64,000 nucleotides of DNA from Trematomus loennbergii (taxonomy: Eukaryota; Chordata; Actinopteri; Perciformes; Nototheniidae): contig JAAOOA010000028.1 in NCBI GenBank assembly GCA_012861695.1, forward strand, positions 15,163,173-15,227,172. Reading direction: 5' to 3'. Positions 23,601 through 52,850 of the stretch are shown piece by piece; position 1 is the stretch's first letter, and each line of letters opens with the position of its first letter. The notes under the pieces are model-generated. The model saw only the letters and a program-made list of their open reading frames with translations. It made no database searches and was not told the origin of the DNA. A program made the position numbers and the translations under genes.

Positions 23601-25056
23601 AAACCGAGTACATGATAAGAAACTAAGTGGTAGCTTTAAGTGACTCTCAGCTGCCAGTCTCTGGAAACACCTGATTGTTTCTTCCTTTTGACTCCTTTTC
23701 TTGTCTCCCCCTCTTTCTCTTTCCTCTCTCTCCATCTGTCTCTCTCCGACTCTCCCTCATGACACTGCAGGGGATCAGTTAGGGCCAGTGTACACACAAA
23801 CTGTGGGAGTTATCTCTGTTACTCCCTTCATGACAGATGCAGTATGAAACGTTTGTTAAAATTCCTTCTTCAAAGGGTAAGCAAAATCTTTATTTTCTCT
23901 AACAAACCTGAGAGAAAGCACACAAGCTGGCATTTGAATGTGGGCTGTCACCAGGAATAAGGACTAATGAGTTATAGGAATTTTTCTCAGGGATATTTCT
24001 CTTTCTGGAGAATTAAAGGCAGGATATTGACAGATTTTAATACTTTTTAAATCTGTCTCTTTAAAGTTCACTTATTGGAGATGCACCTTAAGCTTGATCT
24101 TTTTTGATAAATACACAAGTACACTTCCTTATCGATCTCATATAGCATCTGGGTGATATTTACTTAGACTATTGCATCAGTGCAGTTTTTTATGACCCTA
24201 AAAAAATAATCTTTGTCACTACTGTCTTGTACTGACATTCTCCCATATGTTTGTCTCTAAATAGAAATGTTTATAAATGCATATTGCATGAGGCTCAACA
24301 CCCAGTTTTCAGCTGTGCCACTTATTTTGATGCAAAACCTACTTCCTTTAATAACTAAGCACAAAAACAATCTGACTGTTTAGAAACACAAACGTTGCAT
24401 ATCTCACATTCCCCTTTGTCTGCAGTGCTCCCCCTACCCCAGTCACCCCTTCCCTAGGAAAAAACACAACCAGCCTCCATCGTTACCTCGAAACAAATGG
24501 TAGTATGAATTAGCTACTAGCAGTTGCACTTTGCATTGGACCCATGATGTACTATCATAGGATTACTTTAGTGCTTCAACCCTGGCAGCCACTGCTCTCT
24601 TTACAAACCCCACTGGAGTTATATAAGAGTAATTCAGATACATTGGATAACTTTGAAATAATCAACTTGGCCTGTGTATTTTAGTCTGGAATAAGTTATT
24701 ACTTTAATTATAGGTCAACTTCTTGTTGCTAGGGATACTTGTCACGTTTAGACAGCTTTGCATGACAGATTGACGATTTCTAGGTACATTTTTAGTCATT
24801 GTACAACACAGTGTAGTGGTAGTTTATGCTACACCAGTGTGTATGACAGTGTTTTTTCAAGCAAGCTATATCGAACTTTCTACACAGAAAACCCTTCTTG
24901 TGTTGTTCAATTTGTTGACATTCATTAAAAGGATTAACATTTTTGCATTATCCTTTATATATTAGAGCTAGTGATCAAATGTTGCCTCCATTTTCCCTTC
25001 CTTCATTTCAATCTGTGATTTAGAGGAATGTCGATGGAGGACGAGGATCCAGCTCA
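20654..25056. other. AT-rich DNA, no gene recognised
   Basis: No coding frame with recognisable motifs. A GGTTAGGGTTAGG run occurs at about 22094. Most of this 4.4-kb stretch appears single-copy within the window. Confidence 0.5.
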
Positions 25057-25061
25057 ACTAC

Positions 25062-26178
25062 TGTAGGAGCCATGAAACATGTTTAGTATTCCGTTTTGTT
25101 TTAATATAAGATATTTGTTTGAGCACAATTGATTGGTTGGATTGGGTCACATGGATATGGGCGGCACTCATTATAATCCTGTTCACCTGCGTGAGGTGTG
25201 TGGAAGAGAGGGTGACACAGGGTCGTTGTACTTTTTGTTGACCAGTGGCGAGCCGTCAGGGCCCTCTAGGCCCTCTGTGAGGGCCTAAGATATTCCAAAA
25301 AATAATATTTAAAAACATTAAAAAAATATATATTTTTTTAAATATATATTTTTTAATATTATTTTTGTTATATTTTTCATTAGTTTTACCGAAAAAAAAC
25401 TTGATTTAATAAAATAACATTTCCAAAGAAATAAATCCTTCGAATCTGCCTGTTCAGTCTCTGTTTGAATGTCAGTTACTATAGCGGCCCTCTCTGCGAT
25501 TCACAGAGGGCCCGCTATAGTAACTGAACGAGAGAGTAATGTCAAATGACAGTACAATTGACCAATCATATCTTCCCTCTAAATGGGTGGGTTTTATTAT
25601 CGCGGACTTTATGACGAGTTCCGCCCGCTGTGAAACTGTTCTTGTTTCCATAGCAACAACAACTTCCTGTCAACAGCGTGAACTCGCCTTCAAAATAAAA
25701 GCACGCCAAATTACACTTAAGACATACAACTGCAATGAAAGTAACAAACACAATGCAATATCATTTTCAATGTCAAAGAACACAAATTGGGTTCACAGGT
25801 GTTGTTTTGTGTGGTAGAGGGTCGCTGTCATTGATGCGTTTTGCACCCTGGGCCGTTGTTTTGATATTCCGCTGAAGTATACGCTGTGACGTAATAACGT
25901 CTTTTATTCGAGGGAAGGGGTGGGGGTCAGAGGGCCTAGGTATAAAGCTCACGGCTCGCCACTGTTGTTGACCGCAAGTTGAAATGATTGCTCTGATTAA
26001 TATAACGATGTACATGTCCAAGGAGAATAAGTTGATCATCCCAGTTTTCATTAAACCACATTATTTTGCAACAGAGTTTTTGATCTCAGCAAGTACTTTT
26101 TTGTAGCGTGTCACACAATATCAAACAGGCCCGGCCTCAGCCTCTCAGCGACTTTGTTTGTTTCCTGCTGTCGCTATA
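25062..26178 (+). repeat. BEL/Pao 5' LTR, interrupted by a hAT element
   Basis: Starts TGTAGGAGCCATGAAACATG and ends GCTGTCGCTATA. Without the 722-bp hAT and its 8-bp duplication it is about 387 bp, against 389 bp for the 3' LTR. Few substitutions are visible between the two. Confidence 0.9.
25243..25964. mobile_element. Non-autonomous hAT element in the 5' LTR
   Basis: Perfect terminal inverted repeats CAGTGGCGAGCCGT and an 8-bp duplication TTGTTGAC at 25235-25242 and 25965-25972. The intact 3' LTR gives the empty site. It contains an internal hairpin (25472-25493 with 25505-25527) around GCGATTCAC. No transposase is recognisable. Confidence 0.95.
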
Positions 26179-26595
26179 TTTTGTCAACAAAAAAACAACA
26201 AGCACACAAGACGTAAGAAGAACCATCATCAAACAGCGCATGGATTAAGGATCTATCAAGGAGAATGGAGATAAGCAATTGTTTGAACTAATTCACGGAG
26301 GTAAGCACTGGCTGTTAATAAAGACTGCAATTTTGGAAGCCGCCTTCAACGCGGATCACAGCCAGGTAAGCCTTACCACTGAATGTGCACATTAAGCTCC
26401 ATGGAATGGACGAAGTTTGTATATTCACCGCTGTATATCTCCGCTGTACATCTCCGCTCTGTCACATTGAAGTTGCGCTGCTCTGTTGATGTGGAAATGT
26501 GATGCTTTTGGAATAATTAATTCCCTTCCGATCTGTGAGGGTGTTTTACAATCAAACAAATACACGGAGGAAGTTTGGATAATTAAACGGAGAAA

Positions 26596-28464
26596 ATGAG
26601 TCAAATATATGTTGACATGGTAAAGTGTGAAATGGACTATGGGAAAAAGTCTGCAACTTCTACTGCTTCGTCTGCATGCCTTAAAACAGAGGCTGACTTG
26701 GCAGCTTTAATGGCAAGAAAAAAACTATTAAAGGACAAACATGAACTGGAGGAAGAGGAGGAACAAATTAGGAGCAAACTTCAGATGGAGGAGGAACGAA
26801 TAAGGAGGAGAAAGGAGCAACTTCAGATGGAGGAGGATATTGCAGCACATGTGGCTAAATTAGATGTGTTGCAAACACGGAGCATCCTAAGTGGGAGAAG
26901 TTCAAAAACAAAGCATTCGGATGGAATGAACTCTTATATTGAACAAAGAAACATTAAACCACAAGTCCTCTACACTGCCAAGGACAATATAAATACTCCA
27001 CAAATGTTGCTAAACCAAAGGGAGACTAGCAATGACTTATTGGATCCAACAACACGGCCTAATGAGAACATTTCACCTTGGTTCCTTTCCTCAGAGCCAG
27101 TATCCCTTAAAAAATCCAATTTGAAAACACAAATGAATTATGAAGATCAAAACAACATACTGGGCATTATGAGAAAACAAAATGAAATAACCACACTGTT
27201 AATACAACAGCAATGTCTATCATCCCTGCCAAAGAGAGAGATTCCAGTTTTTGATGGTGACCCCTTAAAATATCACACATTTATGAAGGCTTTTGAGAAT
27301 GGTGTTGAGAAAAACACAAACAGCTACAGTGATCGACTCTATTTTTTGGAGCAGTACACTCAGGGTCATCCCAAAGGACTTGTTCGAAGTTGCCAGCATA
27401 TGGATCCAGAGAGGGGATATGTCAAGGCTAAAGCTTTAATCAGGGAGCTGTTTGGAAATGAGCAGAAAGTGGCATCTGCTTATTTGCAAAAGGCTCTTTC
27501 ATGGCCTCCTATAAGAACAGAAGATGTTAAGGCTCTGCAAGACTACAGTTTCTTCCTTAGAGCATGTGCAAACGCAATGGAAGAGGTGCAGTATTTGCAT
27601 GAGCTTGACATGGCTGCGAATATGATGATCATAATACGAAAGTTACCTTACCAATTCAGAGACAAGTGGAGAACTTTAGCCTGTGAGCTGCAGGAGAGGA
27701 ACAGCCGCAGAGCAACATTCTTTGACATCACACATTTCATTGAGAGACAAGTTAAAATCTTAACCGACCCAGTATTTGGAAACATTCAAGATGCTCCCTT
27801 CATAACACAAAATACTGGTTTAAACAGATCACAGCCTCGTTCACATTTTGTAGGAACTAGCTTTGCCACCACTGTAGCCCTTGTAGAAAATGAAACCCAG
27901 ACAGATACTGAATGGAAGGAACACATTCTGACAAAATGGAGGACATGTCTGTGCTGCGGAGGAGGTCACACCTTGGACTCATGCCATCAGCTTGAAAAAG
28001 GAACACACAAAGAGAAGATAGGCTTCTTGATGGACAAAGGTGACTGTTTGTGCGTGGGGCACATTAGCAGAAATTGCAATAAACAAATTTCCTGTTCAAA
28101 ATGTGGCTTCAAACATCCAACCATACTTCACATCCCTTCCAATGAAGCAAGAAACAATCCTGCTCAAGCCAATAATACATCAGAGTTATCAGTGGTCAGC
28201 ACACTAGTTTCAAGTGGCTTTACCGGGGCTGGTGATGACAATTGTAAACTTCCCATAGTTCCAGTGCAAGTCAAGTCAACGAAGGGCAGCAAGATTGTCA
28301 CCACCTATGCTTTCTTGGACCCAGGAAGTACAGCAGTGTTTTGTACAGAGGATCTGATGCACAAGCTTGGCCTAACTGGAAAGAAGGCGCAGATTATTTT
28401 ACGAACCATGGGCCAGGAGAGGGTCGTAAATAGCCATATTGTGTTCGGACTAGAAGTGGCTGGC
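26596..28464 (+). CDS. BEL/Pao Gag-protease polyprotein, truncated by insertion
   Basis: Begins at ATG 26596 and stays open up to a TTAA insertion at 28465; the apparent stop at 28474-28476 belongs to the inserted element. Residues about 33-92 are a charged coiled coil. Residues about 214-370 match the DUF1759 Gag core typical of BEL/Pao (it starts IPVFDGDPLKY). Zinc-knuckle cysteines and histidines lie at about 451-512; the knuckle at C484/C486/H489/C494 has CX1C rather than the usual CX2C spacing, a possible small deletion. The protease begins at residues 572-583 with FLDPGST, where D575 is the catalytic aspartate. Gag packages the element RNA in cytoplasmic particles. The insertion separates the protease from pol, so this copy is inactive. 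Confidence 0.9.
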
Positions 28465-29101
28465 TTAACCTCTTAAGCCCTGAGCCTGTTTTTCAGGTCT
28501 CAGGCTCGAAAATGACATTCCCAGAACAAATGACCATATCTTCCCTTCTAAAAGGGTTAAATTAATAATCTTTTTTCTCAAAGTAATGATAAACCTGTGA
28601 GTTGGATGTAGAAGAGTCAGAATCAATATAGATGTTTTTTATTTTAAAGAAAATTCAGATTTTACATAGTAAAAAACTGTAAATTATAGTGTCCGTCCAA
28701 ATATTCTTTTTTACTTATAGTAAAAACTTCCCTTGGATGATGGGTTAGTAGACTAAAAGCTTTAGGAATCCAAAGTACAACATATAATAAGTACCCTGTA
28801 TCAAGATTGATGCAAAACAAGTGAAATTTTACCTTTTTAGAGAGATTTAGCCAAAAAACCCCACTTCTGGGGTCATTTGGGTGGATTTGACCTATCTTTT
28901 ATTTATTTATTCATTCATTTATTTAACAGGGACAGTGCACATTAATGAACATTTCTGTAAATGTGCCAGAGTTAGTCAAGAGGCTATTTTTCATCTGTAG
29001 TCCCTGGACAGATTTTAAAAGTCAACCTAAAACACATTTCATTTTAAACAAGTAAATACAATACATTTAAAACATGCAACATACATTACTGGGATACTTA
29101 A

Positions 29102-29590
29102 AGGGGACCTATCATGCAAAATGCACGTTTGTACGTCTTTTATACATGAATATGTGTCCCCGGTGTTCCAGGGAACTCGCCAAGTGTCAGAAAACACAGC
29201 CCTCTCTATTTTCCTCCATACCCAAATCTCTAAAAAAGGGGCTGCAACGGATCTGATAAAAACTGATCCAGATTTGAACACTGTCCTGATGTCAGGACAG
29301 TGGCGCTACGGCTATTGGGCCAACTCCACCAATCAGGAGCAGACAGCCACGGCCATTGCCGTTCGAAAGCGCTGGAGACGCTGTAGTACATATGCCAGGC
29401 CTGTAGATGGTGCTGTTCTCACAGAATCAGCCCTTGCAAAAACAGAGCTAACATTTTTCAAATTGAGCGAAATGAGGCATGGCTAAAATGCATGATCTAT
29501 TTGGTATTTTGAAAAAAAAAAAGTATAAATATGCCTTGTATAGGTATGGTCCTACACTATATTATTCAAATATAGCATGATAGGTCCACT
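29102..29590. mobile_element. TTAA-flanked MITE, family 1, copy 2 (intact)
   Basis: TTAA at 29098-29101 and 29591-29594. Terminal repeats are AGGGGACCTATCATGC and GCATGATAGGTCCACT. It is 489 bp long and uninterrupted, providing the reference for the copy at 667-1974. Innermost layer of the BEL/Pao nest. Short frames inside are shared with the other copy by descent only. Confidence 0.9.
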
Positions 29591-29694
29591 TTAAATAAAA
29601 CAATTTAAAATACAGAACATTAAACAAAACAAATAAAACAAAACAAAAGAACATGTTAAAACATGCAGTGGGTTGTGAGGAGCAGAAGATTGGG

Positions 29695-32476
29695 TCAGTG
29701 TTGGCAGAGCTGATTCCTCACTAACCATATTTTGAGTTTTGATTTAAATAAAGTGAATGTGGACTGGTCTCTGATTGGAGATGGGATTGAGTTCCATTGC
29801 TGAGCAGCTTTAACAGAAAATGAAGACTGACTGAAATAACTTTTTCTGAGTGGAATAATGCAATCTCCTCTCTCTGCACCTCTTGTTACCCTAGTTGCAG
29901 TTGTGTGTATGTTAATAAACTGTCTAAGAGGAGGTGAGGTAAGGCCGTTGACAATCTTATAAAAAAGGCAAGCATTTGCATGTTTAATGAGGTTTTCCCA
30001 GCTTAGCAAGTTGTATTTTTTGAGTATTCGGCAGTGATGCGAATAAACAGATTTTTTGTCCAGTATTTTGAGTGTTTGTTTGTACAATGACTCCAGTGGT
30101 TTTAATGTTGTTGTACTGGCATGTGACCAGGTCGTTAAACAGTAGGTGATGTGTGAGAGAACCATAGTGTGTGTACATCAGAGATGCCTCAATTGACATG
30201 TAATCTCTGGTGAACTTAAAATTCGACAGACTGAATTTGACCCTATTACATATTTCTTTAACCTGAGCCTTGAAATTGAGTGTTGAATCAATCATGACTC
30301 CAAGGTACTTGTATTGTGACACCACCTGTGGCCTCTCCCCTGATACAAAAACATCTGGCGCAACACAAGAGGACTTTGTTTTGGTGAAGAAGATGCATAA
30401 TGTTTTACAAATATTTAGTTGCAAACAGCATTGTTCCAACCAAGTTGTTACATGAACCATGGTGTTTGTCAGTTCATTAGCCACTTGTGTCATATTGCTT
30501 CCATGTACATATATTACAGTGTCATCTGCATACATTTGGATGTTTGTGTCAGGACATACAGATGGTAAATAATTTAAATAGAGCGAAAATAGTAATGGTC
30601 CCAGGATTGAACCTTGTGGGACCCCTGTCGAAAGATGAAGGTCAGCAGATTCATGATTTTGAACTCTCACATACTGAGATCGGTTAAACAAATACGATTC
30701 TAACCATTTAAGTGTTTGTGAAGAAAAGTTAAAACTGGAAAGCTTAGATATGAGTATTTTATGATTGACAGTGTCGAAAGCCTTTTTTAGGTCAAGAAAC
30801 ACAGCTCCTACAACACCACCTTTATCCATTTTTGATTTGATTTGTTCTGTGAAAAAACGGTTGGCGGTCTCTGAGTATTTTGCTCTAAAGCCAAATTGCA
30901 TTGGATGCAGAGAAAATGTGCTAGTGTTTAAATGGTCAATGATTTGCTCAGACACAAGTTTCTCAGCAACCTTTGACACTGTAGGAAGGATGCTAATTGG
31001 CCTGTAGTTACAGGAAGACATGGGGTCTCCACTTTTAAATATTGGGATAACTATAGCCGGCTTCCAAACACTTGGAAACATTCCCTGACTGAAGGAGAGG
31101 TTAATCATTTTGGCAATAGGATTAGAAAGTGTTGTGCTGAGATCTTTTAGCATAACCATGTCCATGCCAAGTATATCCTTTGTTCTCGATGCTTTAAGTG
31201 ATCCAATCACTTTTATAACTTCAGATTCAGTGATATTTCTTATGCTGAAAGCCGGCTCAGTTGTATTAGCATAACAAAAATGTGTGCAGTCAGGTGAGAA
31301 ACACTGTGCAATGGTTGCAACAGAATCAATGAAGTAGTGGTTTAAACCTTCAGCTATGTCAGCTGGATTGTTTATAAGCTTTCCATTGACTTTAAGTTCA
31401 AGCTGTTTTCTTTCCTTATATTTATTTCCAGTGAATAGTTTTAACTGTTTCCAGATCATTTTAGAATTACCCCCTGCCTTGTCTATTATAGTCAAGAAGA
31501 AGTCTGCCTTAGCCTTCCGTAACTTCTTAATGACTTTGTTCCTCAGCATAGCAAAGTGATGCCTGTCATGGCTTAATTTAGTTTTGATTGATTTATTTAG
31601 GACTAGATCACGTTCTTTCATCAGTTTTAAAATATCGTCATTTATCCAAGGGACAGTGTTTTTCTTATTTTTCTGCTTGAATTTGCAATTGAAATCTCTG
31701 ATAGTGCTCTCTAATGTTTTTGAGAACATTTTACTGTCGTCTTCGTGGTCTATTCCCAGCAAAAGATCATCCCATTTAATATGTTGAACAGCATTTATAA
31801 AGGTCTCATATTTGTTTTTGGGAATTCCAAAAGAATAATTTTTCCTGAATGAAGGGCTAAATCGCCTCTTTGTTAGGTTCCTGGCGATTAGAATCATGTT
31901 GTGGTCAGAGAGACCAGTTAACATATTAAAAGATTTAAAAATTCTCTCTGGTTTATTACAAAAAATTAGATCAATTTGTGTCCTGGTGGAATTAGTGATT
32001 CTTGTAGGTCCATTGATCAGTTGCACAAGGTCAAAGTTATCGGTTATCTGTTTAAGATTCTTTCTCACAGATTTATCCTCCCAGTTGATGTTAAAATCGC
32101 CCATTATAATAACTTCTTTGTTAAAATTACATTCTCTTAATAATTTCCTAAAATTCTCATAAAATTGATTGTTTGAAGAAGGAGGCCGATAGATAGCTAT
32201 TACAACAAATGACATTTGTGGTGACAAAGTTATATTGACACCAACACATTCTAGTTCATTGCAATTAGACCACTGAATTTCACTACACTGGATGCTATCC
32301 TTCACATACACCATAACCCCGCCCCCTTTCGAGCCGTGTCTGTCTCTCCGGTAAATGTTAAAACCGGGCATGTCAAAGGCTGCTGTGGGAGCGGACTCAT
32401 GAAGCCAGGTCTCAGATAAACACAGGTAGTCTAGATTAGAGTCCAGTAAAAGATGCTGGATTTGCTCACTTTTAGA
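29695..32476 (-). pseudogene. LINE endonuclease-reverse transcriptase, frame-broken
   Basis: The frame is open upstream of its first Met at 32371 back to the break near 32476, so the true start lies in the upstream segment. Counting from that Met: the apurinic endonuclease has IMGDFNI (residues 89-95) and GLSDHN (153-158). The reverse transcriptase has LDLKKAFDTVNH (526-537), TGVPQGSILGP (582-592) and the catalytic YADD (614-617). A one-base shift in a TG/CA run near 30165 moves the C-terminus to another frame, which continues to 29695 with the usual AAQQWNSIP and FKSKLK tail motifs. All three catalytic RT regions are intact in sequence, but no single frame connects them. Confidence 0.9.
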
Positions 32477-33165
32477 TTAATGCTTCGTATGTTCAAATGT
32501 CCGCCCTTTGGCTTAGCTTTGGGATCCCAGACTGTCCTTGAGTGATTCACAGTTTGAAAGAGACTCCGGTTCCTGTTCTTCGTGATCGCCGGATTCACCT
32601 GTTTCCTGTTTACCTTTTGAGTTGTACTGTTTCCAAATGTACGTGGATTAGTACACCCAGATCCAGCGGTGTTATGAATGTCTTGCCGTGCTGGTGCATC
32701 GTCCCCCCCGCTCCTCGCCGCAGTCCGTCGTAGTCGGTCAGCACCGTACCGCGCAGCTCCAACCAGCCCGCAGCCGTCCGCCGCGACTTCCACTCCAGCT
32801 CCGACACCCGGGGTAGGCCAAACAGCACTCTGTTGGAAATGTGTATTGCGTGTAGCATCCGCCGTGATGTTGGCTTCATTCTCTGGTGTAGTTTGGTATG
32901 GACCAGGGCACGGATGAATATCTCCAGATAGCAGCAGACAGATGGTGATTAGCAGTGCATTACTTTGTTGAAGGCGAGCTTGAGGCTTTGAGTGTTTCTT
33001 TAGCTGTTTGTATAAAGATGGAAAAATGAGAGACACCGCTAGAGTGTGCTTCCCATATCCAAAGTTTCCAAGAGTTGTATGGGTTTGTTGGCTCAACAGA
33101 TCAGCCTTGTTCGCATATTGTGCCTTTTGTTGCTGGTTTATGTCAACAGATCTTAAAAAGTTCAA
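32477..33165 (-). pseudogene. LINE N-terminal region with 2A-like motif
   Basis: Starts at Met 33165. After about 80 residues it has a hydrophobic run followed by LLLSGDIHPCPGP (around residues 76-88). This resembles both the LLLSGDIHPNPGP phrase common at the start of fish LINE proteins and the D(V/I)ExNPG-P 2A ribosome-skipping consensus, here with Cys in place of Asn. A Gly/Ala/Arg-rich stretch follows. The frame then enters the endonuclease (GHLNIRSINLK) and shifts by one base in an A run near 32476; the remaining frame ends at 32431. Confidence 0.75.
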
Positions 33166-33998
33166 AAGTATGCGTGTATTAAGAGAGCTGTGACTGCACC
33201 CACTGCACCTTCCGCCATTGTGTCAGAATGAACTGTCAATCTGTCTCTCTGGCCCCCCTTGGTCGATTTTGATGAATGAAATCTCTTTATAACCGCTAGA
33301 GCCAATGGAATCGAGGGAAAGTTCTATACACACCAACACCTTAACAAATAAGGAGTGAGAGTGACGCGTGACCAAAACCGGAAGCTGCATACACTCTGGT
33401 GGCTACCATTAGCAGCTAACTTTTCCGCTCCGATTTTTACATAAAAATGGAATTATGGATTATAAATATTTTTTTCAAAGGCACAGATACATTATTAACC
33501 TATGGATTAACAGTTGTAGCCTTTTTTTTTCTTCGTTTTAATGCCATTGAACACGTCTTTTGATCTAATTGACAGCTATGGTGAGACGATCTGCCGTAAA
33601 AGCTCCGTAAAGGTACGTGTTGTGATGTCTGTGTTTTCTTCCCCTGTCGCAAGTTTGGATCGATCAGTGATGATACTATACCTAAATAATCTGTGGAGTC
33701 TCAGCTTTAATCGGATATATTGTATGTGCAGCTACGATAAGTAATAAGGGTATCTTTATCTTGAATTGTGTGCCAAAGTCAGTTTGCATTTATTCGCTCA
33801 GGGGTCATTTAGACGCTTCTTATGAGACTTGTGTTTTGTTTTGGTAAAGATGGTTCATATCTTCAGTTAGCTGAGATTCTTCCCGTTAATCTGGTGCTAC
33901 ACATTAATAGTTTCATAAATGTTAAGAAGCCCTGAGACATTGTCTCGAAAAAAAAACGGTAGGAGGGGTCCAATGGGGGGACCTTCGTCCTTAAGAGG

Positions 33999-34430
33999 TT
34001 AAAAAATGACAATTTCTTTGAACTGCCACAAAGCTACACTCAAGAGTGCATGCCTGCCAGCAGTGGGAACATTCCTAGACAAGCGGACCTACAGAGATGG
34101 CCTCATCTAAAATTGTTTAATTTGCCTGAAATAAATGCAGGGATTGGACTGTTGATAGGAACCAATGTTCCTAAGGCCTTGGAACCATTGGAAGTCATAC
34201 GCAGTGTGGATGACGGACCCTATGCAATCAGGACAATCCTAGGCTGGACAGTGAGTGGACTACTTAAAGGAGTGAGTGGGAATGCAATGGATTTGGACAA
34301 ACCAGAAGTATCTGTGAACAGAATCTCAGTTATGAATTTAGATGAACCTTGGCAACAGCAGTTCAGCACAGACTTCCCTGAATGCAGATTGGAGGAACAA
34401 GCTGGAATGTCAAGAGAGGATCTCAAGTTT
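33999..34430 (+). pseudogene. BEL/Pao post-protease remnant (start of pol)
   Basis: The BEL reading resumes after the TTAA insertion. Motifs include LLIGTNVPKALEPLEV, GPYAIRTILGWTVSG and NRISVMNLDEPWQQQF, all typical of the linker between protease and reverse transcriptase in fish BEL/Pao. The reading ends at EQAGMSREDLKF (34430), which is where RT-proximal sequence should follow. Instead the sequence becomes SURF6-like. RT, RNase H and integrase are missing. Confidence 0.85.
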
Positions 34431-34790
34431 AAGAAGTTTGCGAAGAGAGTGTTTTCTCAGCAAGAGTCGAAGAAGAAGTGTAAAAATAAAAGTTTTAAAG
34501 ATGAGAAGAAGCCTCATCCCAAATCCCAACAAAAGCCCTCTCCTTCAACGGCTGCTCAGAAAGGCCCCCGCTACAAACAAAGAAATGGAGAACAAGATGA
34601 AGTGGACCAACGTGCTCTACAAGGCCGAAGGACTCAAAATCAAAGAAGACGAGGACATGCTGCGCTCCTCGTTAAAGGAGTGGGGCGATCAAAGCGAGAA
34701 TATCATGGAGAAGATGCAGAAACGACAGGAAGAGACGGAAGAACATCCGACATCAGTGACATCTTTTCCACAATATTGACTCTTTTCGAC
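34431..34790 (+). pseudogene. surf6: SURF6-like cellular sequence captured in BEL/Pao
   Basis: Directly after the BEL segment the frame reads KKFAKRVFSQQESKKK and lysine-rich sequence. From 34585, in another frame, it reads MKWTNVLYKAEGLKIKEDED, then a WGDQSENIMEKMQKRQ block and, after a further small shift near 34732, RRKNIRHQ before a stop. The conserved C-terminal domain of surfeit locus protein 6, a nucleolar ribosome-biogenesis protein, has this order (MxWxNxLYKAEGxKI, then xxEKMQxRQxxRxxN). Compared with that domain, about ten residues are missing between SSLK and EWGDQ, and most of the central protein is absent. No introns are seen. It looks like a deleted, intronless copy of a cellular mRNA. 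Assignment is from memory of the family, without alignment. Confidence 0.75.
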
Positions 34791-35014
34791 TGACAGACTT
34801 AAATGACACTAAGGATTATCTTTGACTGAGCCTAGGTGGTGGTACCTTTTGGCCTAACTGACTTGTGACTCGTATAAAGAAAAGAAGAAGGGAAACTACA
34901 CGCATGAACTGTAACTGTATGGACTTCATTACCAAGCTATAAATGTCACATGTCTCCCATTTGAATAATGTTAGTAATTATTATGTATACTATCCTAATA
35001 ATTAGAGGCTGGTG
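34791..35014 (+). other. BEL/Pao 3' untranslated region
   Basis: Non-coding sequence between the SURF6-like segment and the 3' LTR. AGAGGCTGG at about 35004-35012 lies just before the LTR and could be part of a polypurine tract. It may be BEL sequence, SURF6 3' untranslated sequence or both. Confidence 0.5.
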
Positions 35015-35403
35015 TGTAGGAGCCATGAAACATGTTTAGTATTGCGTTTTGTTTACATAAAAGATATTTGTTTGAGCACAATTGATTGGTTGGATTGGGT
35101 CCCATGGATATGGGCGGCACTCATTATAATCCTGTTCACCTGCGTGAGGTGTGTGTGGAAGAGAGCGTGACACAGGGTCGTTGTACTTTTTGTTGACCGC
35201 AAGTTGAAATTATTGCTCTGATTAATATAACGATGTACATGTCCAAGGAGAATAAGTTGATCATCCCAGTTTTCATTAAACCACATTATTTTGCAACAGA
35301 GTTTTTTATCTCAGCAAGTACTTTTTTGTAGCGTGTCACACAATATCAAACAGGCCCGGCCTCAGCCTCTCAGCGACTTTGTTTGTTTCCTGCTGTCGCT
35401 ATA
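35015..35403 (+). repeat. BEL/Pao 3' LTR (intact)
   Basis: 389 bp from TGTAGGAGCCATG to GCTGTCGCTATA, followed by the ACTAC duplication. It provides the empty-site reference for the hAT in the 5' LTR. Confidence 0.9.
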
Positions 35404-35408
35404 ACTAC

Positions 35409-36208
35409 TGTAGTGGATCAAAAAGGCCAGATGGGAAGGAGAGTACACAGAGAGCACTTGGGGAATTTAAATGAGCATTTGGGATTTGCTCCTTTGTAAA
35501 AATTAAAATGTCTCTCCCCTAGCTAAACATTGATGCAGACTCTCACACAGATGGACAAGGCTTTGTAAACACACACTTAATCAGGGAAACATACACACAT
35601 ACATAAACACACAGGCTTGTTGTTAGAGCCCATGTGAGGTAGCTATACGTCAAAGCTCACTGCTTGCCCCATAGCCCTTCAGAGGATGTTTGTTGGTGTG
35701 AAAGAGTACTGAAATATAAAAATGGCAGAGACAGATTGAGAAGAGGAACTTGTTTGCGCATATTAGTCATGAGGACTTTGTAGGAGATAAACTGAACAAA
35801 GTAGCCCAAACCTCAAACAGCCATTGAACAAATAAGGACAAGCCAAAATGTCTACACTGTCCGAATATGGCCTCACTCTGGTGGTCAAAAACATGTTCTG
35901 GTCCTCACCTTCTAGCAACTACACACACACACACACCTAAATGCCCAAGACATTTCATTCTATCCTCTCTGTTGGGTCAAAATGCTGAAAGTAGGCCTTC
36001 AGTGTGATGGCCAGCCACAAGAACAAGGCCTTGTCTCCAGTGTCTGGGAGTTCAAACAGTTGCTGAAGGCAATTACCCCTCCTGATTTCCGTAGAAGGCA
36101 GTGTTTCAGACTCACACTCTCTCTGAAGGTTTAACCGATTTAATCATACAGGCCTCTAAGGGAGAGCCACTATGCCACTGCTTATCTTGTAGACACAGTG
36201 AGGACTCC
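35409..36208. other. Unassigned DNA between the two large nests
   Basis: No gene or repeat recognised apart from a short CA run at about 35921-35936. Confidence 0.5.
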
Positions 36209-44402: not shown

Positions 44403-46683
44403 GTAAAAGTACTTCAATGTGTTAGAAGCAGTCAAACTAGTACCGAGTCCAACAGTGTCAGTTTTATTAAGAACTTGTGGTAACAAATATTTGTAAAAAG
44501 AAAATGAAGAGCTGCTGATTTGAAAAAACAAACTCGAGAGACGGCAGAGTTGACCGCAGTGCAGAATCGCTGTATAGTTTAAATCTCTTAACAATGTTAT
44601 CCATTTTAGACATAGGCTTATTATATTTACAGCCCTTAATAACATTCATTTTCTGGGTTCAATGTGTGTCTTGGCCGTTTTCGTTGTGATCGCTAAATTC
44701 ACCTCGTTTCCCCTTGTTTATAATATTATCACAGTTCCAAGCAAACGAGTGCTTTTGTTTTGAAATCACTTCCTCGAGTTTAGCGCCCCCCCCCGGTCCA
44801 TTAGACCATTTAGTAAGGTAAAAAACAAAAAGCAAAAACGCCTCTCAGAGGCTCTTCCGTTTACTTTTTTAATAAAGAAAAACAAATCGTCCGAAGACAC
44901 ACGGATTCATCTCCCTCCATCATGTTGATTTGAATCCGAAGTTCTGAACATGAGCCCGCCCCGCTCGACCTTCTGAGCCAATCACAGCGCGATAATGACC
45001 TGCCTTCCGTTTCAAATACTCCTTCCGTTTCCACTATACTTTCTCTCACACATACATGCATTCTTCTCTTGCATACATATATTGTCTTCAGACATGCATA
45101 AATTATTTATAATATTAAATGTAAACATTGATTGAATGTGCATGAGAGCAAAATGTATAAATATGAGCGTTAAAATATATGAATATGAGAGCAAAATGTT
45201 TGTGTAAATATGTGAGTGACAATGTATGAATGTGTGCATTGAAATATATATGTGTGTCAGAGGGAAAATGTATGTATGTAAAAGGAGAATGTATGTGTGT
45301 AAAAGTGAAAATGTATGTATGTAAAAGGAGAATGTATGTGTGTAAGATAGGGATGTGCATCTCCATCACTGAGGCCGATACGATGCGCATCTCGATACGC
45401 TACCAACGATACGATCCATTAACGATCCATTTGAAACACCAGGCGATGCGATACGATTCACCCCTGTTGCGATACAGTTCGATACGATTTGATTCAACAT
45501 TATGCGATACGGGGCGATACGATGTGATTCAACACGATGCAAAATAATGATACAATTCAATATGGTACGACAGAGGATTTTGTTTTATTCCTTATATGCA
45601 GCAAATCATACATTAACAAAAAAGTGCTTCATATATTTGCTTCTCTCTACTAGTACTGCACATCCCATCATGCTGTTTATTTTTTACCTTAAAAAAAACA
45701 AACACTTGGACCTTTCACAAACTGGCCTTTTCACAAGTGTAGTAGTGTTCTCTGTCTCCAGAGTACAGTTCAATTTTATAACACCTCACAGTTAAACAAT
45801 TTAAGGCAACCTGATCTCACCAGAATGCGTGACTCCACCACGACTCCTTAACACTGATTGCGTGGTGGAGTCACGAACTTTGTTACATTTACGTGTCTGC
45901 ACCACGCAAACAACGCTAATGTAAAGTGAATGAGGCTCCTTTGTCGTGGTGCACACACGCATTTCTACAATGTCCAGCAGTGAGCTTTTATTCTATAAAC
46001 CGTTTTTAAAATCTACTGTATAGCTTGTAGTAACTCACGGCAGGCTTATTTTATTTTATTTGTATTCATAATAATTTTTATTTTTCGTCAGAATGTATTA
46101 TGGTGCATTATTCACCAATGTTTGTTCTCAAAAAACAATGTATTGTATGTAATACAACTGTGATTTTTATTAAATTAGTTCGTTTTTAAGGAAGGCCAGA
46201 GCTTCAGCTGTGTCAAAGAGATTGTTCCCTTTAGTTAACGTTATTTAAAAGATAATTATATTCCTATTTCATTAAGTACCCTTTATTGTATTACGGACCC
46301 AAAGAGCTGAGCGTCCATTCCCATTGGATAACAGAGCATTATCTGTTAATTACACAACATTGATTGGTTTAAATTGTGTACAATGCTTTTGTATTTTCCC
46401 CTTTCGATTCGGAGAAACAAATATGTTTTCGGAGTGTGTGGATGGTAGAAGACCTACACTACCCAGAATCCTCAGCTATTGTTCCGCTTTGCCTCAAGCT
46501 CTGTGATTGGTTGACCTCCAACTGCATTCCAATGAAAAAAACGTTTCGTCAAAGATCAAATCATACTTTATTCAGCAGTGCTTGCTTTACTCTTTGAAAG
46601 TCATCACATGAATGCATTGTAATGAATGGTTTGGCTGCATTAAACATTACACATCTGTCGTAGTTCTTTATTTATCTACAGAT

Positions 46684-49160: not shown

Positions 49161-50143
49161 CACGTTCTAAGCACATGGTGTAGTCCCATAGCTGAGGATT
49201 CTGCTGAGGATTCTGGGTAGTGTAGTGCCTTCTGCCATCCACACACTACGAACAAATATTTGTTTCTCCGAATCGAAAGGGGAAAATACAAAAGCATTAA
49301 ACACAATTTAAACCAATCAATGTTGTGTAATTAACAGGATAATCTGGTGTTTTGAGTTGATGAGTAGTGCAGATATCACTGTAAATAAAATCAATGGACA
49401 GTAAGGAGAATACTTACTTCCGGGTGTAAAATGCTCTGTTATCCAATGGGAATGGACGCTCAGCTCTTTGGGTCCGTAATACAATAAAGGGTACTTAATC
49501 AAATAGGAATATAATTATCTTTTAAATAACGTTAACTAAAGGGAACAATCTCGTTGACACAGCTGAAGCTCTGGCCTTCCTTAAAAACGAACTAATTTAA
49601 TAAAAATCACAGTTGTATTACACACAATGCATTGTTTTTTGAGAACAAACATTGGTGAATAATGCACCATAATACATTCTGACGAAAAATAAAAATTATT
49701 ATGAATACAAATAAAATAAAAGAAGCCTCCTGTGAGTTACTACAAGCTGTAAAGTAGATTTTAAAAACGTTTTATAGAATAAAAGCTCACTGCTGGACGT
49801 TGTAGAAATGCGTGTGTGCACCACGACAAAGGAGCCTCATTCACTTTACATTGGGGTTCTGTTGCGTGGTGCAGACACGTAAATGTAGCAAAGTTCGTGA
49901 CTCCACCACGCAATGCGGTGTTAAGGAGTCGTGGTGGAGTCACGCATTCTGGTGAGACCAGGTTGATTTAAGGATGCCCAGGATTAACAATGTGCAAATA
50001 ACAACTACCATAGTGCAATGCACATACAACTGCCAGCCTGATGTGCTTAACACTCATTCATAGGCTAACTCACTCACCAGTGAGCAGAAAGCAGTGGTTT
50101 CTATAGGAACAATAAAGAAAATAACCTTTCACAAACAGGTATT

Positions 50144-51735: not shown

Positions 51736-51740
51736 GGATG

Positions 51741-52850
51741 CTTTGTAGAGGTTGAACAGTCTAGCCTTGTTGTCATTTCGGTGGAAGTGGATGCCGTTTT
51801 CCTTCAGGAACGTTGAAGTTGAATGACTGTCCACCTCCGTAGTTCGGGCTCCGTTTTGGAGCGCGGCTCCGTCTGAGAGGCGTGTCGAGTGCGCCGCTGC
51901 GAGTGGCCGGGGCTGCGAGTGAGGCAGGCTGCCGGTGGTGGGGAGATTGGAGCTCCTTTTCTCTCTTTTCTTCAAAACATTGGGTGTTGGGGAAGGGATG
52001 AAGGGATGTATGTGCACGGGGATTTTGTGACACAGAGGGGAGGGCGATACTACCTGGCCCCCACCAGGGGTGCTGGTGAGTCGGGCTGTGTCCGTGGAGG
52101 AGGAGGGAGGCCTGTGACGTCACGACCCGTGGTGCGCGCGTGCGGTGGTTGACTCTGGAGCGGGAAGAGCTGTGTGTGTTGTTGTTCTTGCCGTTGTGCT
52201 GCTGTAGGCTTTGTAGAGGTTGAACAGTCTAGCCTTGTTGTCATTTCGGTGGAAGTGGATGCCGTTTTCCTTCAGGAAACGTTGAAGTTGAATGACTGTC
52301 CACCTCCGTAGTTCGGGCTCCGTTTCGGAGTGCGGCTCCGTCCGAGAGGCGTGTCGAGTGCGGCGCTGCGAGTGGCCGGGGGCTGCGAGTGAGGCAGGCT
52401 GCCGGTGGTGGGGAGATTGGAGCTCCTTTTCTCTCTTTTCTTCAAAACATTGGGTGTTGGGGAAGGGATGGAGGGATGAAGGGATGTATGTGCACGGGGA
52501 TTTTGTGACACAGAGGGGAGGGCAATACTACCTGGCCCCCACCAGGTGGTGCTGGTGAGTCGGCTGTGTCCGTGGAGGAGGACGGAGGCCTGTGACGTCA
52601 CAACCCATGGTGCGCGTGCGCGGTGGTTGACTCTGGAGCGGGAAGAGCTGTGTGTGTTGTTGTTCTTGCCGTTGTGCTGCTGTAGGCTTTGTAGAGGTTG
52701 AACAGTCTAGCCTTGTTGTCGTTTCGGTGAAAGTGGATGCCGTTTTCCTTCAGGAAACGTTGAAGTTGAATGACTGTCCACCTCCGTAGTCCGGGCTCCG
52801 TTTCGGGGCGCGGCTCCGTCCGAGAGGCGTGTCGAGTGCGCCGCTGCGAG
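51741..52850 (-). repeat. Tandem units of about 470 bp with SAP-like motif
   Basis: Units start at 51741, 52209 and 52687 (spacing 468 and 478 bp); the third is split by a hAT at 52851. Each encodes on the minus strand ELRRWTVIQLQRFLKENGI followed by FHRNDNKARLFNLYKA, which fits the helix-turn-helix outline of a SAP DNA-binding motif. Unit 1 lacks one A (near 51808), shifting that frame. Units differ by a few substitutions, implying recent duplication. Function unknown; the motif and Arg/Ser-rich context are seen in mobile-element proteins of fish. Confidence 0.65.

Follow-up and report, generated by a model that had tools for sequence, protein, structure and literature searches.

An intron-free SURF6 segment in place of most of pol in a BEL/Pao retrotransposon of the fish Trematomus loennbergii

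The stretch of DNA that was analysed, called the window below, comprises 64,000 nt of Trematomus loennbergii (assembly GCA_012861695.1, contig JAAOOA010000028.1, positions 15,163,173-15,227,172, forward strand). It contains an LTR retrotransposon with the following features, given in window positions:

25057..25061, no strand: left target-site duplication ACTAC, 5 bp, read directly
25062..26178, plus strand: 5′ LTR, TGTAGGAGCC...TGTCGCTATA, matching the 3′ LTR at 95.7% and 99.1%
25243-25964: DNA-transposon-like insert of 722 bp that breaks the 5′ LTR
26587..28476, plus strand: BEL/Pao gag and start of protease, a single open frame of 629 codons from stop to stop
28465..33999, no strand: younger nested insertions, including a minus-strand LINE (reverse transcriptase and endonuclease), recognised by LINE domains and repeats
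34000..34432, plus strand: BEL/Pao linker between protease and reverse transcriptase, the pol remnant
34433..34466, plus strand: piece of SURF6 exon 1, from about position 36 of the coding sequence (cds)
34467..34569, plus strand: piece of SURF6 exon 2, left edge approximate, retaining codons that the host gene has lost
34570..34748, plus strand: pieces of SURF6 exon 4, up to cds 958, in a frame that differs from that of the N-terminal part
34749..35014, plus strand: element tail up to the polypurine tract AATTAGAGGCTGG
35015..35403, plus strand: 3′ LTR
35404..35408, no strand: right target-site duplication ACTAC, 5 bp, read directly

The initial annotation had described the SURF6-like segment as enclosed by an LTR pair sharing a 5-bp duplication, and the two ACTAC repeats agree with this. 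The LTR ends are further supported by other LTRs of the family: of ten that were examined, eight are solo LTRs flanked by identical 5-bp repeats. L035 and L036, which are among these eight, have near-identical flanks and are perhaps one insertion; the other two of the ten are L033, treated below, and L037, which is not clearly of this type. The insert within the 5′ LTR carries 14-bp terminal inverted repeats (CAGTGGCGAGCCGT) and an 8-bp duplication (TTGTTGAC), an anatomy by which we take it to be hAT-like. The younger insertions between gag and the pol remnant are a correction to the initial annotation. In the copies L010 and L011 and in P0001, a predicted protein of Gymnodraco, gag passes directly into the linker. 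The minus-strand LINE inside the BEL element occupies 29695-33222, and one frame of 830 codons is open in it. Elsewhere in the window there are a tandem repeat with a period of about 470 bp at 51740-52850 (51740-52372 versus 52208-52850, 95.7%) and an inverted repeat (45807-46340 and 49430-49965, 96% alike, with about 3 kb between the arms). A search of 25000-36000 against Rfam gave zero matches.

The gag frame matched DUF1759 with 24.2 bits (E=3.8e-5), just below the cut-off of 25.4. Its best protein matches, which are BEL-type with fishes among the sources, showed 57-58% identity at 95% query coverage, and the protein P0145, with 61% identity over 71% of the gag query, carries Pao peptidase and reverse transcriptase (RT) domains. 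Judged by these likenesses, the gag/protease region can be classed as BEL-type. The BEL homology ends at DLKF (34432), where relatives continue towards RT; fish BEL proteins spanning this joint are 45-62% identical to the linker and then run on into RT. The linker DNA is 70% identical to a high-copy BEL family. As only 266 bases lie between the end of SURF6 and the 3′ LTR and the RT of the relatives is missing, most of pol has indeed been replaced. The element has no RT, RNase H or integrase of its own and is therefore a non-autonomous derivative rather than a complete BEL/Pao member. The tail in front of the polypurine tract was assigned to the element because it is common to the chimeric copies and has no match in the SURF6 locus; it is presumably BEL-derived. 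With the linker on its 5′ side and this shared tail on its 3′ side, the SURF6 segment lies between retrotransposon parts, as had been proposed.

The frame at 34342-34776 matched the Pfam SURF6 profile over residues 72-132 (30.8 bits, cut-off 23.1, E=3.2e-7) and human SURF6 (entry 8fkp) with E=5e-6. At the DNA level, exon 1 of the SURF6 gene of the same fish aligned with 34432-34466 (94% identity), exon 2 with 34491-34569 (94%), and exon 4 with 34578-34680 (95%) and 34681-34748 (87%). Over a run of 41 bases the captured sequence is identical to the host coding sequence. These matches confirm the C-terminal SURF6 block of the initial annotation, and the best matches of this block are SURF6, not BEL/Pao proteins. 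The preceding stretch, described there as lysine-rich, consists of SURF6 exons 1 and 2 from about 34433, and the SURF6 sequence stops at 34748 instead of 34790. SURF6 was correctly reported to be in frame with the pol remnant at the 5′ junction; its C-terminal block, however, is read in a different frame (+1) from the N-terminal portion.

Contig C26 carries the host SURF6 gene as a separate, intron-bearing locus whose four exons contribute 94, 183, 83, and 681 coding bases. For exons 1-3 the encoded protein does not differ from that of Chaenocephalus aceratus, and for exon 4 the identity is 96.5%, which likely places the host among notothenioids close to the icefishes. The window segment aligns with exons 1, 2, and 4 of this gene without any intron, in agreement with the first reading. 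The joint between exons 1 and 2 is itself deleted in the window copy, and the border (cds 94) is crossed without a gap by the copies L014 (cds 36-122) and L017 (cds 36-108). Because the fusion of the two exons is exact in both copies, the source of the capture was a spliced mRNA; the comparison with the host gene suggested in the initial annotation thus did reveal a fused exon junction. The captured exon 2 still has CKKK-type codons that are present in Eleginops and other fishes and were lost in the host and in Chaenocephalus, so that the capture is likely older than this loss.

When 34400-34800 was searched against the genome, 16 rows resulted. Three of them are the host gene, and the others represent nine chimeric copies: the window copy, two copies on C135, one each on C26, C16, and C86, and three on C1. 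The 5′ joint between BEL and SURF6 is common to all nine, and the 3′ joint between SURF6 (cds 958) and the element is kept in eight; the C86 copy is truncated. Every one of the ten exon-4 rows in the genome belongs to the host gene or to a chimera. The nine copies, together with the same BEL-to-SURF6 passage in the predicted Gymnodraco protein, show that the junction, which recurs at independent loci, is not a misjoin.

The captured SURF6 sequence has decayed to different extents, with most of it retained in L015 and nearly all of it lost in L017. A 314-nt deletion (cds 215-528), which removed exon 3 and brought exons 2 and 4 together, with GCCCCC shared at the joint, is common to L012-L015; the same joint was recognised by eye in L016, and an enlarged version of the deletion is present in the window copy, L010, and L011. 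In the genome search no exon-4 row beyond the host gene begins before base 172 of exon 4. Four deletion joints share 6, 7, 9, and 10 bases, where for the 9- and 10-base joints less-deleted copies (L012 with the host gene; L014) served as proxies for the sequence before the deletion. At least 6 shared bases occurred in about 0.5% of random joints (200,000 draws), a figure that is slightly undercounted as draws running off the sequence end were scored as misses. L015 additionally shows a 9-nt slip sharing 8 bases. The remaining deletion joints share just 0-5 bases, and microhomology is thus not found throughout. Some indel characters contradict one another, as expected if short repeats delete repeatedly, and frame-changing deletions are found in the captured SURF6.

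Five other copies have gag and were compared with the window. The dN/dS values of the window Gag were 0.29 with L010 (445 codons), 0.21 with L011 (444), 0.28 with L013 (615), 0.23 with L017 (446), and 0.32 with L025 (410), where L017 and L025 are a single copy read twice; these low values thus concern four copies, namely the two on C135 and those at 4.42M and 1.59M of C1. The value with L012 was 0.57. After exclusion of one pair that compares identical DNA, 20 of the 21 Gag pairs remained, 11 of them at 0.21-0.32 and nine at 0.37-0.76. The latter are the six L012 pairs (0.37-0.76), L010-L011 (0.62), L013-L025 (0.59), and L013-L017 (0.37). Fisher tests of three window Gag pairs, assuming a synonymous-site share of 20.5%, gave 1.6e-7, 1.9e-7, and 9.4e-5. 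The linker showed a weaker signal (dN/dS 0.35-1.36, one pair undefined). For SURF6, pN/pS pooled over pairs that are not independent was 1.39 for the N-terminal and 1.86 for the C-terminal part in eight of the nine copies (L011 left out), and 3.27 and 1.43, respectively, in five copies. The captured SURF6 is not a functional retrogene: no purifying selection is seen and its frame is broken. Since all copies share the capture, the constraint on Gag dates from after this event, barring an exchange of gag with relatives free of SURF6.

A parent element free of SURF6 was not seen among the scored gag and linker matches, in which every match above 90% was a chimera. For the linker (40 scored of 97 candidates), the best eight matches (92-100%) were all chimeras and the other 32 were at about 70%; for gag, where 40 of 115 candidates were scored and gave 41 rows, the top seven (95-100%) lay in six chimeric copies and the rest were at 69-70%. 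The LTR is more numerous, with 222 candidates, of which 40 were scored. At L033 (C33:15578730-15580320) the 3′ LTR of the family follows a polypurine tract, with unrelated sequence upstream and a second LTR-start-like TGTAGGAGCC before it; as the 600 bases upstream gave no informative match, we regard this locus as the end of another element and not as the parent. L026 on C6 was likewise rejected, being a mere tail fragment amid unrelated sequence. The matches at about 70% in both linker and gag represent a sister BEL family found at L027, L028, and 30 further places with nearly equal scores. Because so many rows score nearly alike, this family was probably active recently, and it is a candidate helper that might supply enzymes.

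A protein search with two SURF6 pieces listed 112 proteins, the top five of which came from Gymnodraco, Dissostichus, Eleginops, Pagothenia, and Chaenocephalus, all of which we take to be notothenioids. Three predicted proteins were chimeric: P0001 (Gymnodraco) passes from the BEL linker into SURF6 and P0002 (Dissostichus) from a gag piece into SURF6, the deletion being enlarged in both as in the window copy; in P0004 (Pagothenia) a SURF6 part with the L012/L013 deletion continues into the element tail. No further chimera was among the 53 proteins listed by a search with P0001. In P0082, a predicted protein of 132 residues from Gymnodraco acuticeps, the start of a BEL RT (MPNNRCIAEQR...KRK) is joined to the middle and later part of SURF6 (RLHEKIEESRGQ...), which carries younger SURF6 states of icefishes. 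It may stem from another capture or from a gene model that was stitched together, and no P0082-like copy with exon 4 was found in this genome. That notothenioid BEL/Pao elements took up SURF6 mRNA more than once seems to us rather unlikely. If true, BEL particles would preferentially carry SURF6 mRNA, and the family described here would, as a transduced lineage, have survived its SURF6-free parent.

We are fairly confident that the window harbours a BEL/Pao element in which an intron-free piece of SURF6 mRNA, likely captured a single time through template switching, replaced most of pol, and which spread to at least seven sites with its Gag under purifying selection and RT and integrase likely borrowed. 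SURF6 mRNA would have been packaged together with BEL RNA; the enzyme would have jumped from the BEL 3′ tail to SURF6 at cds 958 and, in a second jump, from SURF6 at about cds 36 back to BEL. The chimera could then have retrotransposed repeatedly with its own Gag, founding a gag-only lineage, with the missing enzymes (reverse transcriptase, integrase) provided in trans by other elements, and later copies would have shed more of SURF6 stepwise via jumps between short repeats. Template switching, already suggested in the initial annotation, is the best inference for the capture: around the SURF6 part neither poly(A) nor a target-site repeat was seen, both of its ends are internal to the coding sequence, and it lies in sense orientation within the LTRs with element sequence on either side. 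Microhomology does not prove the switch points, as no more than one to three bases are shared at the 5′ junction and the 3′ joint is not comparable on its BEL side. An alignment of the chimera tail with the sister family scored 49 with the LTR start (shuffle maximum 46) and 43 without it (shuffle maximum 48), and it is unusable for the 3′ switch point because the sister family is too diverged there.

A two-step transduction is improbable in our judgement, although it overlaps with the explanation just given and the two are not mutually exclusive. A BEL element would have resided in or upstream of SURF6 exon 1, its read-through transcript would have been spliced and packaged, and template switching would have occurred at the 3′ joint only. 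This is the textbook route of retroviral host-gene capture and would suit the in-frame 5′ joint; since this joint lies inside exon 1 and inside pol, however, a DNA deletion would also be needed. We give clearly less credit to a processed SURF6 pseudogene that was made by a LINE, inserted into BEL pol, and trimmed on both sides by deletions, together with most of pol, before the spread. LINEs are present and deletions in the captured part are common in this family, but inspection by eye of the 5′ joint in nine and the 3′ joint in eight copies disclosed neither poly(A) nor a target-site repeat, the position of both SURF6 ends within the coding sequence speaks against this route, and the genome searches with the captured segment and with exon 4 found no other SURF6 retrocopy. 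It would require an insertion and two deletions ahead of the first spread.

Retrotransposition of the chimera is favoured by its insertion sites. In the eight copies whose 3′ flanks (1,500 bases each) were compared, only the C135 pair is alike and the other six are distinct, which gives seven distinguishable sites. Within elements, the K2P distance of the LTR pair is 0.021 for the window copy, 0.026 for L013, and 0.028 for L017/L025; between copies it is 0.04-0.11, with the exception of the C135 pair (0.003). Between-copy distances exceeding those within elements are expected for separate insertions from diverged source lineages. Target-site repeats match on both sides in the window copy; L013, which has both LTRs, shows no matching repeat. 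In a tree the window copy groups with C135 (support 0.96), most other nodes being weak. It is very improbable that the nine loci arose by duplication of one insertion: the C135 copies, 87 kb apart with shared flanks, would fit, but the other six flanks resemble neither one another nor C135, LTRs are closer within than between copies, and the window copy has its own 5-bp duplication. An assembly artefact or a chance likeness to a lysine-rich protein can practically be dismissed, given nine loci, predicted proteins of other species, and 87-95% DNA identity to host exons.

In retroviral transduction, a host mRNA replaces part of the coding region and the resulting defective genome needs help in trans. 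The element described here likewise has host mRNA in place of part of its coding region; unlike in retroviral transduction, no envelope or infection is seen and SURF6 shows no sign of selection. The kind of event is already known from maize Bs1 and from LTR-mediated retrocopies, as far as the available excerpts of the reports tell. In these excerpts, LTR elements with host-gene retrocopies such as Bs1 usually hold the captured segments in the sense of gag and pol (PMC5408686, PMC13317346, PMC7264820). Bs1 is also an LTR element with partial host-gene retrocopies, but a plant element with fragments of three host genes, whereas the present case involves a fish BEL/Pao element and a single gene, found nine times in one genome; here the passenger is progressively lost and selection was measured on Gag. 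For metazoans, LTR-mediated retrocopies were described in mosquito, zebrafish, chicken, and Drosophila (Tan et al. 2016, as cited in excerpts of PMC5408686, PMC8232201, and PMC9674220), where element RNA and cellular mRNA are joined by template switching at short similarities; template switching is what we propose here as well. In contrast to these, the chimera here is a family of its own that also appears as predicted proteins in several notothenioid genera. Pxyfem of Plutella xylostella is similar in that exon-exon joints of a host mRNA (Masc) lie beside gag remnants of an LTR element in multiple copies; according to the excerpt, it forms tandem W-linked clusters yielding silencing RNAs, whereas the copies here are dispersed and LTR-bounded (PMC9674220). 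A literature search covering mostly titles and abstract starts found no report of a BEL/Pao-SURF6 chimera, in line with the initial annotation, which knew of no such capture by BEL/Pao in fish.

The family is a vertebrate BEL/Pao lineage with a captured host mRNA and, among the scored matches, the only close lineage of its kind in this genome. Its copies form a ladder of one capture at successive stages of decay, in which Gag was kept and the passenger was lost, probably via jumps between short repeats. They offer a natural record of the onset, spread, and erosion of a transduction. With the help of the related chimeras in several notothenioid genera, this record could be dated against the radiation of these fishes, the onset of which is put at 10.7 million years in PMC10256766.
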